From the NCBI RefSeq assembly GCF_001656035.1, contig NZ_CP010029.1, positions 3,470,074 to 3,534,073 on the forward strand: a DNA stretch of 64,000 nt. Direction: 5' to 3'. The notes under the pieces were generated by a model that did no database searches, was not told the origin of the DNA, and was given only the letters and a program-made list of their open reading frames with translations. The stretch comes from Yersinia entomophaga (GTDB lineage Bacteria > Pseudomonadota > Gammaproteobacteria > Enterobacterales > Enterobacteriaceae). Positions 1 to 6,002 of this stretch are shown here, one piece after another. How positions within the stretch are numbered: the stretch's first letter is position 1; each line of letters begins with the position of its first letter. The position numbers and the translations under genes are program-made.

Positions 1-3000
1 CAAAACGATGGGAACCGCCGCACCGAGGAAAGACTGCTGAGCCGGTCGCTCGCGATCGGACGGTAAAGTCATGCGTTCTGGTATGCCCTGCAATTTTTGC
101 AGCCAAAATTGGCCGTGGGCATGCCACTCCGGGCTATCCAGCCACTGTTGTTGCCACTGCGCATAATCAGGATATTGCAGTGGTAATGCCGGTAATGGGT
201 TGGTTTCGCCTTGAGACCAGGCTGAGTAAAGCACCCCCAGTTCGCGTGCCAAAATCTCCATTGACCAGCCATCGGTGACGATATGGTGGATAATCAACAG
301 CAAATAATGCTCACTGGCGGCGGTATGAGCCAGACTGGCGCGGATCAACGGGCCGTGGGCGATATCAAATTTATGGGCGATTTCATGCTGATACAGTTGC
401 CAGAAATCCTCATCGGCATGAGATGACGCAGCGAAATCATACTCTTGCAGTGGCGCTTGTGTGCCAACCGGCAGCAGTTGAACGTAGCCGACCCCGTTTT
501 CCGCGTGGAAAACCGACCGCAATGCATCATGACGATCCAGCAAGTGGTTAAGGCAACGCTGTAGAAGTTGGGCGTTAAGTTTACCATTCATTTTCAACAA
601 TAACGGAACGTTATAGTTCTCATCGTTGTTCCCTAGTTGCTCAATAAACCACAGTCGGTTTTGCGGGAATGACAGTGGAATCCGCGCATTAGCATCAATT
701 CGTGCAATTTGTGTGGCCGTTTGTTGCTTGGCCTGAGCAACTAATAACGCCAATTGAGCAAGCGTTGGCTGGGCAAAAAACGCCCCCATGGTGATTTTGC
801 TCTGCCAGCGGGATTGCATCTTACTTAAGAGCTTCATTGCCAGCAGCGAATCCCCGCCAATAGCAAAGAAACTGTCATTGCGCCCAATTCTCTCCTGACA
901 GAGCACTTCTCCCCATATTTCATGTAATTCCTGCTCGGTGTCTCCTTGAGGAGCCTCATAGGATTCGTGCACATAGGCATTAAAATCGGGGGCAGGCAGC
1001 TGCTTGCGATCGATTTTTCCGTTAGGCGTCAACGGTAAATGATCAACGGAAACATAGGCGATAGGCAGCATGAATTCCGGCAATAACGGGCTCAGGAAAT
1101 CCCGCAGATGGCGTGGCAGCTCTTCCGTTTCAGTATTTCCCGCCAGTACCAGATAGCTAACGAGTTGCTTTTCCCCTGATGCATTTTTATAGGCAATAAC
1201 CACGGCTTCATTAACCTGGGGGTGGCTCAATAATTTCTCTTCGATCTCGCCAGGCTCAATACGATAGCCGTTGATTTTCACCTGCTGATCGTCACGACCT
1301 AAATATTCCAGAGTGCCGTCGGCAAAATAACGAGCCAAATCGCCGGTACGATACATACGCTGATTTTTCGCAATGAAAGGATCGGCGCTATAGCGTTCTT
1401 CGGTTAGCGCAGGTTGATTTAGATAGCCACGGGTCACGCCATCGCCGCTGATATACATTTGTCCCACGGCACCGAAAGGCACGGGTTTTAACTGATTATT
1501 CAGCAAATAAATGGCTGAATTGGCAATAGGTCGGCCAATGGTTGGCAGTGAATGGGAAGCGTCAATCAGTGCCACGGTAGCGTCAACCGTGCATTCGGTT
1601 GGGCCGTACACATTGAACGCGGTAAAGTGATTTAACGCTGACAGACGCCTCCAGGTCTGAGGAGACAAGGCTTCCCCGCCGATTAACAGAATCAGTTTTT
1701 CCACCTGATTAGGCAAATCGGAGAGTAATAACATTTCCAATTGGGTTGGCGTGCAGTCGAACACGTCAATGGCATTGTCTTTAAGAAATTGCACTAACCG
1801 GGCTCCATCAACGCGAACATCTTGCGGAACGATATGGAGCTGGTGGCCACTCAGCAGGCTGAGCAGGCTTTGTAATGAAGCATCAAAGGAGATGCTGGAG
1901 TTGAGGCAAACCCTTGATTGTTTAGGGTAATAGTGGAAAATTTCCTCGTTTAACGCGTAATACAGGTTCATAACCTGCGCGTGTTCGACCATCACGCCCT
2001 TTGGTCGGCCGGTGGAACCAGAGGTAAATATCACATAGGCCAGTTGATTAACCGAAAGCTGAGGTAACTGCAGTGGCGTATCCGGTGTATCTATGGCAAG
2101 TAAGGCATCCACGTCATAGGTACGGACATCACTGCTACCGGCTAATATTTCCTGACCCAATGAGTCAACCAACAGCACTGCGGGTTCGGCGTCATGAAGC
2201 ACATCTTTTAAACGTTCGCTAGGGTAGGCGGGGTCGAGAGGAACGTAACAGCCGCCTGATTTCAGAATCCCGAATAGCGCCGCTATTTGTAAGCAACTAC
2301 GCTCCATGCACAGGGCAACACGCATATCTGCCTGAATGCCTAAACCAATTAAATGGTGGGCAATGCGGTTAGCCAGCCTATCAAACTCCAGATAAGTTAA
2401 CTGCCGTTCGCCGTGACAAATTGCGATGGCATCGGGCGTTTTTTGCACCTGTTGTTCAAATACCTGGTGAATACAGCTGTGGTTGTTAAAGTCGCATTCC
2501 CTGTGATTCAGTGTCTCCAGTAGCAGTAATTCTTCGGCTTTAGGAATAAAATTAATATTGCCAATAGAGCAGGGAAGGTTCCCAATTTCGACGCTATTTT
2601 TTAATCCTTTTAATAGATGACTATTAATTTGAGTGATTCGGTTTTCAGCTAAATAGGCGGCATTATAAATCCAGCGGAATTGACCGTTTAAGGCATTGAT
2701 TTGTAATGTTAGTAGCGGGAAACTGTCGGGATTTATCCTAGAGTGAATAAGAATGTCGCCATCGGTAATGGCCACTGCTAATGCATATAAAGGTTTGTTC
2801 TGTAATAGTTTGGTATTTCTCTTCAAGGTTTCATGGCGCAGTACGATATCTGTCGCATAGCTTTGAGCCTGATTGACTCGCTTTATTTCTTTATTAAGAT
2901 TTTCTGTAAAATCAACCAAGGATAATTGATCACAGATATCAGCTACATCCATCGGAACCCAAGGTGAGGAGAGTTGAGAACAGATATCTTCGCCCTGACG

Positions 3001-4992
3001 GAAGGCGTGATAGCCAAGCTGGAAACTATGTTCGCCAGAAAGGCTATGCAGGTAAGCGGCAAACAGACCGATAATTTTCAACCAGGAGTTATCGCCGGAG
3101 TTTGGTAACTCGGAATATTGCCATTCCCCAACGGCTAATCTGCTGCCTCCTTCGGTCTTATCAAGAGAATAAGGGAAATCTACCGGGTTGAATCTTTGAA
3201 GTTTTTCCAGCCAGAAAGGCTCATGCGTAGCCAAAGTGGCCAGTTCGGTAGATAGCGCTTCGGATTGCTGTTGGCTCAGAATCGGTAGCCGATCGCCAGC
3301 GGTCAGATGACCTTGTTCGGCTAAGGCCGTAGCGGGAACCGGGGTGCCGTCCAGCTTGCTGAAAGCGCTAATTCTGATATCCGTAGTAGTGGTCGTTACC
3401 TGCCAGCCATCATTTATGCTATCCAGACGCACCAGCGTGCCTGGGGCGAATAATGTTTTTTCTGGTAAGGTTTCAACCTGATTAACGATGAGTAATTCAT
3501 TGTTAATTAATATTTTTAACTTAGTTATCGCGGGCGGTACACCTGCCTTTTCTGATAACGCCAGTGCCAGATTGGCGATTTGCTGTGCATCCTGTACCTG
3601 CCAGTTAATAACGGCGGCGGACAGTGGGTTTCGCATGTTTTCAAACAGCGTTCTGCGAGGGGAATTGGCCCGCGCTTCCATGATTTGACGATCGACTTGC
3701 CCAATGGAATTTTGTGGATTGGCCGCCAGCTGCTCGAGGATAACGCTGAATCGACGGTGGTGGTCGAATATATCTTCCAGGCTGTGCAGCCTGTCACTTC
3801 CGTAAAAGCTGATGGATAGCCCTTTACCGTAACCTTTATCGTCGAATACGACAGAAAAGCCGTGGGTTTGGGAGCCTTTTGCTTTTATCCATTTGGTCTC
3901 GCAGTGTTGGAAGGGCGTACCGCGATCAAATAGCATCAGATTAATTGCTGGGCCGAAACTGAATTCCTGCTTGTTTTTTCGTAATATATTTTCTCCACGA
4001 TAGCGCTGATGTTTTAATATCTTTGTCAGCTGCTTATTCATGTTTCTGGCAATATCCAGAATATTATCTGTGGGAGTTACTGTAACTTCCAGCGGTAAAG
4101 TATTCGATGTCATTCCTATCAGGTTTTTGGATTCTTTACCAATGCCTGTTACCGGGAAACTGAAACTGAGTTCTTTAACTCCGGTCAAGGTATAGAAGTG
4201 AGCAGCGACGGCCGCAATATAAATATGCGTTGGCCTTAGATTATTTTTCTCTGCAATGATCTCTATCGATTTATTAACAGACTCGTCGATATATTGTTCT
4301 TCTTTTAATATACTCCGATCGTTAGGACTGTGACTAAGGAATGAAAGACGGTTAGCATTGCTAGCCTTCTGCAAGAAAGTATCCCAATAGGCTTTATCCA
4401 GAGTGAAGCGTTTTGACTGTAGATATTCAATATCTTTTCTAGCCAGCAAGTCTGGTTCGTCAGGAATAATAGTCTCCGGTTCTTTTCCAGAGATTAATTC
4501 ATCATATCGGTCGCTAATGCGTTTTGAGATGAGACCCAGACTCCGACCATCCATAAGGATATGGTGGCAGCGCTGATAGTAAATAAATTTATTTTGCGGT
4601 AAACAAATCAATGAAAAGTTGAGTAGGTTTTCATCTTCTGGCGAAATCAAAGTAGTGATATCAGCCTGTATCCAGGCGTCCAAATCGAAGCTTTCATCCA
4701 AATTATCAGTTTTATCAATTATATGTAAATTTGTGTCAAGAGTGTTATCTACATATTGATATAACTCGCCGTCGATGGCCTTGAAGCGGCTTTTCATCGC
4801 AGGGGTTTCTGCAACAATGCCACGGAGTGCTGTTTCGAAAACAGAGATGTTTAAATTTCCAGTAATTTCCGCATATTCGGAAATATTAAAGGGTAGGTCT
4901 GGCGATAATTGCTGTATCAGCCAAACTTCTTTTTGTCCTAATGTTGCTGGGGAGTAAACACAGTTTCCGTTATTCTGCTTAATGCTGTCCAT
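1..4992 (-). CDS. Non-ribosomal peptide synthetase, 5' part (C - FmtC-like - C-lobe-like - A(Gln) - PCP - C...), runs off the left edge
   Basis: Open for 1664 codons from ATG 4992 (AGGGAAAAG ahead) to the window edge, so the C-terminus is missing. Order read from the translation: condensation domain (about 1-440) with HHILMDG at 143-149; a segment at about 460-570 (INW..., APGT, GWQVTT, GDRLP) resembling the C-terminal domain of methionyl-tRNA formyltransferase; about 571-830 resembling the C-terminal lobe of a condensation domain; adenylation domain (about 835-1340) with FTSGSTGRPKG; carrier domain with GGDSLL (Ser1382 would carry phosphopantetheine); second condensation domain with HHIVTDG at 1569-1575. 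Aligned by eye to GrsA, the ten specificity residues read DAQDLGVVDK, the published glutamine code, so Gln activation is predicted. An N-terminal condensation domain implies an upstream module or an acyl starter. Product unknown. Family call is firm; the insert and substrate are inference. Confidence 0.93.
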   Translation of the reverse strand, partial: MDSIKQNNGNCVYSPATLGQKEVWLIQQLSPDLPFNISEYAEITGNLNISVFETALRGIVAETPAMKSRFKAIDGELYQYVDNTLDTNLHIIDKTDNLDESFDLDAWIQADITTLISPEDENLLNFSLICLPQNKFIYYQRCHHILMDGRSLGLISKRISDRYDELISGKEPETIIPDEPDLLARKDIEYLQSKRFTLDKAYWDTFLQKASNANRLSFLSHSPNDRSILKEEQYIDESVNKSIEIIAEKNNLRPTHIYIAAVAAHFYTLTGVKELSFSFPVTGIGKESKNLIGMTSNTLPLEVTVTPTDNILDIARNMNKQLTKILKHQRYRGENILRKNKQEFSFGPAINLMLFDRGTPFQHCETKWIKAKGSQTHGFSVVFDDKGYGKGLSISFYGSDRLHSLEDIFDHHRRFSVILEQLAANPQNSIGQVDRQIMEARANSPRRTLFENMRNPLSAAVINWQVQDAQQIANLALALSEKAGVPPAITKLKILINNELLIVNQVETLPEKTLFAPGTLVRLDSINDGWQVTTTTTDIRISAFSKLDGTPVPATALAEQGHLTAGDRLPILSQQQSEALSTELATLATHEPFWLEKLQRFNPVDFPYSLDKTEGGSRLAVGEWQYSELPNSGDNSWLKIIGLFAAYLHSLSGEHSFQLGYHAFRQGEDICSQLSSPWVPMDVADICDQLSLVDFTENLNKEIKRVNQAQSYATDIVLRHETLKRNTKLLQNKPLYALAVAITDGDILIHSRINPDSFPLLTLQINALNGQFRWIYNAAYLAENRITQINSHLLKGLKNSVEIGNLPCSIGNINFIPKAEELLLLETLNHRECDFNNHSCIHQVFEQQVQKTPDAIAICHGERQLTYLEFDRLANRIAHHLIGLGIQADMRVALCMERSCLQIAALFGILKSGGCYVPLDPAYPSERLKDVLHDAEPAVLLVDSLGQEILAGSSDVRTYDVDALLAIDTPDTPLQLPQLSVNQLAYVIFTSGSTGRPKGVMVEHAQVMNLYYALNEEIFHYYPKQSRVCLNSSISFDASLQSLLSLLSGHQLHIVPQDVRVDGARLVQFLKDNAIDVFDCTPTQLEMLLLSDLPNQVEKLILLIGGEALSPQTWRRLSALNHFTAFNVYGPTECTVDATVALIDASHSLPTIGRPIANSAIYLLNNQLKPVPFGAVGQMYISGDGVTRGYLNQPALTEERYSADPFIAKNQRMYRTGDLARYFADGTLEYLGRDDQQVKINGYRIEPGEIEEKLLSHPQVNEAVVIAYKNASGEKQLVSYLVLAGNTETEELPRHLRDFLSPLLPEFMLPIAYVSVDHLPLTPNGKIDRKQLPAPDFNAYVHESYEAPQGDTEQELHEIWGEVLCQERIGRNDSFFAIGGDSLLAMKLLSKMQSRWQSKITMGAFFAQPTLAQLALLVAQAKQQTATQIARIDANARIPLSFPQNRLWFIEQLGNNDENYNVPLLLKMNGKLNAQLLQRCLNHLLDRHDALRSVFHAENGVGYVQLLPVGTQAPLQEYDFAASSHADEDFWQLYQHEIAHKFDIAHGPLIRASLAHTAASEHYLLLIIHHIVTDGWSMEILARELGVLYSAWSQGETNPLPALPLQYPDYAQWQQQWLDSPEWHAHGQFWLQKLQGIPERMTLPSDRERPAQQSFLGAAVPIVL

Positions 4993-5432: not shown

Positions 5433-6002
5433 ATGTTGGTTGGATATGCCCGTGTCTCTGCGGATGATGAAAAATTGAATTTACAACGCGATTTTTTAAA
5501 TCAGGTAGGGTGCGAAAGGTTATTTGAAGACCATTTCAACGGAGCAAAAGTGGAACGGCCCGGTTTACAACAAGCACTAAACTTTGTTCGTGCTGGCGAT
5601 ACACTCGTAGTGTGGCGATTAGATCGTCTGAGTCGTTCACTTAAAGATCTGATTGGAATGATGGCATTATTGGAAACAAAAGGCATCGCGCTAAAAAGTA
5701 TTGAAGATGGTATTGATACCTCGACCAGCTCGGGGGAGCTTATTTTTCGACTTTTTGGCGCTCTGGCTAAATTTGAACGTAATGTGATCAAGGAAAGGAA
5801 TCAGGCAGGATTAAGGGCTGCGCGCGCCCGGGGCCGTAATGGCGGCAGACCAAAAGCGCTGAGTCAGGATAAACAGGATTTGGCGGTAAAACTTTATGAT
5901 GAGAAAAATTATACCGTGGCGCAGATTTGCCAGATGATGGGGATCTCTAAGCCTACGCTGTATAAATATCTTGGTGCCGCCAGAGGTGGCCGCACGGAAT
6001 AG
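5433..6002 (+). CDS. Serine recombinase, resolvase/DNA-invertase (Pin/Hin/Tn3) family
   Basis: 189 residues, the normal length for small serine invertases and resolvases. The catalytic N-terminal domain starts GYARVS, with Ser9 the expected nucleophile. RLDRLSRSLKDL and the FERNVIKERNQAGLRAARARGR segment (the long E helix and hinge) follow. The C-terminal 45 residues form a helix-turn-helix (VAQICQMMGISKPTLYKYL). Such enzymes cut and rejoin paired short sites to invert or delete DNA. Start ATG 5433 has AAAGAGGA about 7 bases upstream. It is divergent from the NRPS and has no transposase or phage gene beside it, so it is either a remnant of a mobile element or a free-standing invertase. Its target sites were not identified. 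Confidence 0.9.
   Translation: MLVGYARVSADDEKLNLQRDFLNQVGCERLFEDHFNGAKVERPGLQQALNFVRAGDTLVVWRLDRLSRSLKDLIGMMALLETKGIALKSIEDGIDTSTSSGELIFRLFGALAKFERNVIKERNQAGLRAARARGRNGGRPKALSQDKQDLAVKLYDEKNYTVAQICQMMGISKPTLYKYLGAARGGRTE

Follow-up and report, generated by a model that had tools for sequence, protein, structure and literature searches.

The start module of the linear gramicidin synthetase LgrA has the order F-A-T (T, carrier domain), with an N-terminal capping domain fused to the adenylation (A) domain, and we know of no C-terminal condensation-domain lobe (C-lobe) before the first A domain of LgrA. The lipopeptide nonribosomal peptide synthetases (NRPSs) RzmA, HolA and CDA begin with a starter-type condensation (Cs) domain, the surfactin starter domain being of the same type, and in lipopeptide starter modules the Cs domain itself meets the A domain. 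A 2022 review calls formylation domains scarce, and its consulted part names three formylated products (PMC8949500). Here we report on the start module of an NRPS whose gene lies at the left edge of a 64,000-nucleotide stretch of Yersinia entomophaga DNA (NZ_CP010029.1, positions 3,470,074 to 3,534,073; in the following, the window). With a probability of roughly 70% we regard this module as a hybrid of a Cs domain with the chassis that formylating start modules use.

The open reading frame (ORF) starts with an ATG at window position 4992 on the minus strand and runs off the left window edge, leaving 1,664 amino acids inside. After addition of the neighbouring stretch of the same genome the gene was found to be intact (G000:C1:3463246-3475065) and to code for 3,939 amino acids with the domain order C-[insert]-A-T-C-A-T-C-A-T-reductase. 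Pfam listed three Condensation, three AMP-binding and three carrier stretches and a terminal NAD_binding_4 reductase in the whole protein, and two Condensation stretches in the part inside the window, the position being given for the best Condensation stretch only. The features are collected in Table 1.

The gap between C1 and A1 comprises about 400 residues (C1 matches end near 434-436, A1 starts at 845), compared with about 20 residues between C2 and A2 (C2 ends at 1880, A2 starts at 1901); the Cs domain of this module is not joined to its A domain by a short linker. An original prediction made from the window sequence had pointed to this insert as absent from a normal C-A linker, which agrees with these distances. 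The insert is real and no assembly error, since four homologues of 3,937-3,941 amino acids (52-89% identity) contain the same insert. In the five proteins its length is nearly constant (391-393 amino acids) and many residues are invariant.

The same prediction had read the first ~110 residues as the C-terminal domain of a formyltransferase (FTC) and the next ~260 as the C-terminal half of a condensation domain lacking HHxxxDG, and it had proposed a Pfam scan for PF02911 and PF00668. Scanned alone, the insert matched Formyl_trans_C (PF02911) weakly (E=0.0029; 18.2 bits, below the cut-off of 21.1), and this family was not listed in the scan of the whole protein. Two of five relatives scanned whole scored above the cut-off (24.0 and 27.1 bits), two below (17.5 and 19.2), and one gave no match. 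A complete ordinary condensation domain is not present in the insert: scanned alone it gave no Condensation match at E values up to 10, and neither an N-lobe nor, by motif search, HHxxxDG was found. Two profiles were used besides. The narrow one, built from the window and four close rows, found formylating relatives (L010, 1.8e-50), but among PDB structures neither it nor the bare insert matched a methionyl-tRNA formyltransferase or a condensation domain. The wide one was built from eleven family members, formylating relatives included. Its columns ~16-124 matched methionyl-tRNA formyltransferases (the genome's own Fmt 5.5e-11, 3r8x 9.6e-7, 1fmt 8.6e-6), its first third also matching solved ArnA structures. 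Its columns ~117-392 matched the C-terminal halves of condensation domains (8hlk 9.3e-11), aligning with residues 199-469 of the McyB C-A protein and with other condensation domains from about their middle. By these matches both assignments of the prediction hold, and we assign residues 446-570 to an FTC domain and residues 571-835 to a C-lobe without its N-lobe.

C1 is the N-terminal condensation domain of the first module, carries HHxxxDG and is of the same type as the lipopeptide Cs domains. The closest solved structures were the starter domain of RzmA (7c1k, 3.3e-40), CDA-C1 (4jn3, 2.2e-34) and EntF (5ja1, 9.2e-31); the NCBIfam models MxcG (3.8e-53) and EntF (4.3e-35) were matched far below their curated whole-protein cut-offs. 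The domain was found at E 1e-30 in 2 of 25 genomes of the genus. In the Erwinia amylovora protein P0017 the motif reads HHSLIDV, the Gly being lost, and P0018 is also without the exact motif; the Cs domain of these two proteins may be altered. The A1 code was read by eye as DAQDLGVVDK, as in the original prediction, with the last K taken by convention; we take it to be the Gln code.

By sequence, the nearest other family of the insert is that of the formylating start modules, and the parallel drawn in the original prediction to ACV synthetases, where C-lobe-like fragments are said to precede the A domain, is not needed. Start modules of this kind (Photorhabdus, Mycetohabitans, rhizobial, cyanobacterial) have the same order of FTC, C-lobe and A domain and homologous sequence; the window insert is 28-29% identical to L010 and L013 and 25% to L017. 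Both the FTC domain and the C-lobe between FTC and A are present in the window, whereas the formyltransferase core of the formylating modules is replaced by the Cs domain: no core with its Asn/His motif was matched ahead of FTC in the window, the place being occupied by C1. LgrA matched the formyltransferase core of a formylating relative only (residues 80-214), and no LgrA chain was listed for the FTC-C-lobe profile. In the following, proteins with a formyltransferase core before FTC are called F-type and those with a starter-type condensation domain and no such core C-type.

Five of 198 genomes of the same family match the insert: the window's own, G078, G070, G138 and G148. In G138 (Photorhabdus-like by its matches) FTC and C-lobe follow a formyltransferase core at the NRPS N-terminus; in G070 and G148 a condensation domain stands ahead of them, as in the window. 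Some relatives from Serratia, Erwinia and elsewhere share the C-type form with the window. When the formylating form was used as query in a protein search, 237 hits were obtained, the best 120 of which were examined; among the matches listed were, by name, Photorhabdus, Xenorhabdus, Mycetohabitans, rhizobia, Bradyrhizobium, cyanobacteria, Chloroflexi and others. When 188 proteins were scored with per-piece profiles, 110 were F-FTC-C-lobe, 23 C-FTC-C-lobe and 53 without FTC, one was F-FTC without a detected C-lobe and one had neither core nor condensation domain in front. The C-lobe is thus found in 110 of the 111 proteins bearing a core, and N-x-H...LP of the core in 109 of them. All 41 loci of the wider genome searches were classified (20 F-type, 11 C-type, 9 C-lobe-only, 1 uninformative). 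The family search (E 1e-18) matched 28 places, spread over 14 of 392 genomes; of these, 11 (in 8 genomes) were C-type, 9 F-type and 8 C-lobe-only. The phylum search matched 13 places, spread over 10 of 398 genomes, of which 10 were F-type, 1 C-lobe-only and 1 uninformative; its single C-type place was the window itself.

Some NRPSs of G138 and related genomes (L019, L021, L023 and others) begin with a short leader of the MKDNI type, followed by a lone C-lobe and the A domain. The leader resembles that of F-type proteins in the same genome; here the whole formyltransferase has apparently been lost. Several F-FTC-C-lobe-A modules (P0121, P0125, P0139, L036 and others) contain a luciferase-like monooxygenase (PF00296, precomputed domains), which in L036 lies, by eye, inside the A domain.

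The FTC domains of the two types differ in one motif. RAx(1-3)FG is present in 92 of 111 F-type but in none of 11 non-redundant C-type rows (11 of 23 counted, 12 near-duplicates left out), whereas PGT and the barrel pattern are kept in both consensus lines. We infer that RAx(1-3)FG faces the formyltransferase side. For a tree of 99 FTC-C-lobe segments, 88 F-type rows were kept after a similarity cut, and 14 named rows were omitted (near-duplicates of Serratia, Erwinia, Yersinia and G070 rows, P0050 and P0073). The 11 C-type rows and 26 F-type rows lie on one side of a branch with support 100/99 and the other 62 F-type rows on the opposite side. These 26 are mostly proteobacterial by name, three having fungal names. 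The C-type rows form four groups, and the insert is kept in all of them. In a tree of 35 rows two changes are needed, yet a single C-type origin was not rejected (p-AU 0.55), and the tree with the C-type rows held together was slightly more likely. FTC is one half of a formyltransferase and is present here without the other half, which is best read as loss of the core; a Cs domain would have come to occupy the same joint.

The predicted structure of C-lobe and A1 superposes on C-A didomains, and the C-lobe is predicted to pack on A1 like the C-lobe of an ordinary C-A pair. The original prediction had suggested that the insert orients an unusual substrate or contacts a partner; because of this predicted packing, the A domain of the same module is the likely partner. 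FTC probably serves as an adaptor to the Cs domain. Selection was estimated for ten segments by pairwise comparison with Y. nurmii (Nei-Gojobori). The ratios of nonsynonymous to synonymous substitution (dN/dS) were 0.127 for C1, 0.194 for FTC, 0.318 for the C-lobe, 0.099 for A1 and 0.220 for T1, and 0.102 for C2, 0.219 for A2, 0.138 for C3, 0.128 for A3 and 0.112 for the reductase. The insert is under purifying selection, FTC within the range of the other segments and the C-lobe loosest, which leaves room for decay.

Since the model of C-lobe and A domain superposes on C-A didomains, RAx(1-3)FG is lost in the C-type and the region is under purifying selection, we infer that FTC and C-lobe form a non-catalytic chassis on which the Cs domain adds an acyl group to the amino group of the first residue, with acyl-CoA as the probable donor. 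A1 would load a Gln-like residue onto T1, which would swing to C1 for transfer of the acyl group. The donor would probably be an acyl-CoA of primary metabolism, because no acyl ligase or carrier gene was found in the parts of the NRPS flanks examined; a formyltransferase gene was not found there either, and one ORF of 288 amino acids had no Pfam match. Modules 2 and 3 would extend the chain, and the terminal reductase would release an N-acyl tripeptide aldehyde or alcohol. The C-lobe would fill the C-A interface and support, perhaps tune, A1, and FTC would be the joint holding C1 where the formyltransferase core would be, neither of them contributing chemistry.

Three other explanations were weighed. 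It is unlikely that FTC and C-lobe are a slowly decaying remnant without a role, tolerated as a long linker. The missing RAx(1-3)FG would fit such decay, as would the dN/dS of the C-lobe, the highest of all segments, and of FTC, which exceeds C1 and A1; but both ratios (0.19 and 0.32) are well below 1, FTC does not exceed A2 or T1 (0.22), and the constant length with its invariant residues, the retention of the insert in four C-type groups and that of the C-lobe even without FTC, at 9 of 41 loci, all speak against a remnant. Less probable still is that FTC serves as a docking or gating site for a separate formyltransferase acting in trans, or for an acyl carrier, in a second, optional capping reaction. 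The domain helps to hold the tRNA in Fmt, and it has been retained here. Moreover, Fmt formylates the nonribosomal peptide glidonin in another bacterium, according to the part of PMC10587159 consulted. The loss of RAx(1-3)FG and the lack of partner genes in the flanking parts examined argue against docking. Somewhat more probable than either, if still doubtful, is that the donor of C1 is an acyl or aryl group on a carrier protein made elsewhere, as for EntF and MxcG, and not free acyl-CoA, which would be compatible with the chassis. The NCBIfam matches of C1 point in this direction. Against it, the examined parts of the flanks contained no carrier gene, and the starter domains of RzmA and CDA score best among solved structures. 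This ranking is not decisive, because CDA is itself served by an acyl carrier protein (PMC7804268, in the part consulted).

Several points weigh against the hybrid reading itself. Two C-type groups stand apart in the 35-row tree, and the window clade has a long stem (1.07 in the 99-row and 1.4 in the 35-row tree), which, like the high dN/dS of the C-lobe, also fits slow decay; the F-type pair P0106/P0109 has a stem as long. The trees have no true root, and that the F-type came first is concluded from the grouping and from the fact that FTC is half a formyltransferase. Over much of C1 the model has a pLDDT (predicted local distance difference test) of about 40, so that the position of C1 on the chassis is not fixed by it. 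The C-A packing comes from a predictor trained on many C-A structures, with an overall pTM (predicted template modelling score) of 0.58. Four of the 20 F-type loci, all divergent and one a short fragment, gave no C-lobe match, and a fifth a weak one (16 bits). The lone C-lobe proteins may have a frameshift upstream of the C-lobe. The census of F- and C-types is biased, as the proteins were drawn by FTC-C-lobe queries. Finally, no biochemical data for any C-type module were found.

Table 1. Features of the NRPS; window positions unless a genome coordinate is given
Feature	Position	Strand	Basis
C1, starter-type condensation domain, residues 1-440	3673..4992	-	closest solved structures and NCBIfam MxcG/EntF
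HHILMDG, C1 active-site motif, residues 143-149	4546..4566	-	motif search
FTC, formyltransferase C-terminal domain, residues 446-570, no formyltransferase core ahead	3283..3657	-	
Extra C-lobe (C-terminal half of condensation domain; no N-lobe, no HHxxxDG), residues 571-835	2488..3282	-	profile, motif search and model
A1, adenylation domain, residues about 841-1332, code DAQDLGVVDK	997..2472	-	Pfam; code by eye
T1, carrier domain, residues 1354-1416	745..933	-	Pfam
C2, condensation domain, start	1..684	-	Pfam
C2-A2-T2-C3-A3-T3-reductase, rest of NRPS outside window	G000:C1:3463246-3470073	-	Pfam

Two NRPS genes are named for Y. entomophaga MH96 in the consulted part of PMC4885058, one of which, PL78_15615, lies beside the second Ivy gene, PL78_15610. 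Our NRPS gene, too, is adjoined by an Ivy gene, for a lysozyme inhibitor, which lies outside the window on its left (L003:7648-8106, plus strand; Pfam). This Ivy gene is probably that second copy, and the NRPS is probably PL78_15615, because the two genes adjoin each other in the same way. The part of PMC4885058 consulted gives no product for PL78_15615, and both locus tags were found in no other open-licence paper searched. Just upstream of the NRPS gene, at window positions 5433-6002 (plus strand), lies an ORF that by eye resembles resolvase/invertase-like recombinases. An ORF of equal length (189 amino acids) is found at the matching place in Y. nurmii (L006:7666-8235), whereas Serratia silvae has other neighbours upstream of the NRPS. 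The recombinase ORF may mark how the NRPS gene arrived. The A2 code, again by eye, reads DACVFGNVVK in the window species (NRPS at L003:8181-20000, minus strand) and about DVCIAAGVLK in S. silvae; A1 differs at one position and A3 looks alike. To judge from these codes, the products of the two species may differ at residue 2.

In the open-licence PMC literature, seen in part and with subscription papers outside the search, we found no description of a C-lobe in formylating modules or of a C-FTC-C-lobe-A module; the form is already in the databases as sequence. The chances are about even that FTC-C-lobe-A is a natural exchange chassis, in which a formyltransferase core or a Cs domain is plugged in before FTC, or the front is dropped, while the C-lobe is always kept as a support of the A domain. 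Living genomes show a single chassis combined with three front ends; the joint is sharp, and an FTC motif kept in the formylating forms has been lost. This bears on two engineering questions, how start modules gain or lose capping and where domains can be swapped without breaking the A domain. If true, nature would already have tested the joint before FTC as a place to cut when the first chemical step of an NRPS is to be exchanged, and acylation by the Cs domain would run from the position of the formylation site while the canonical C-A platform is occupied by a dead C-lobe. It would also give a reason for the conserved odd half domain: the half of the condensation domain on which the A domain leans is kept. 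With its parts well identified and its function proposed, the module hints at the way in which the first step of such assembly lines is exchanged in nature.
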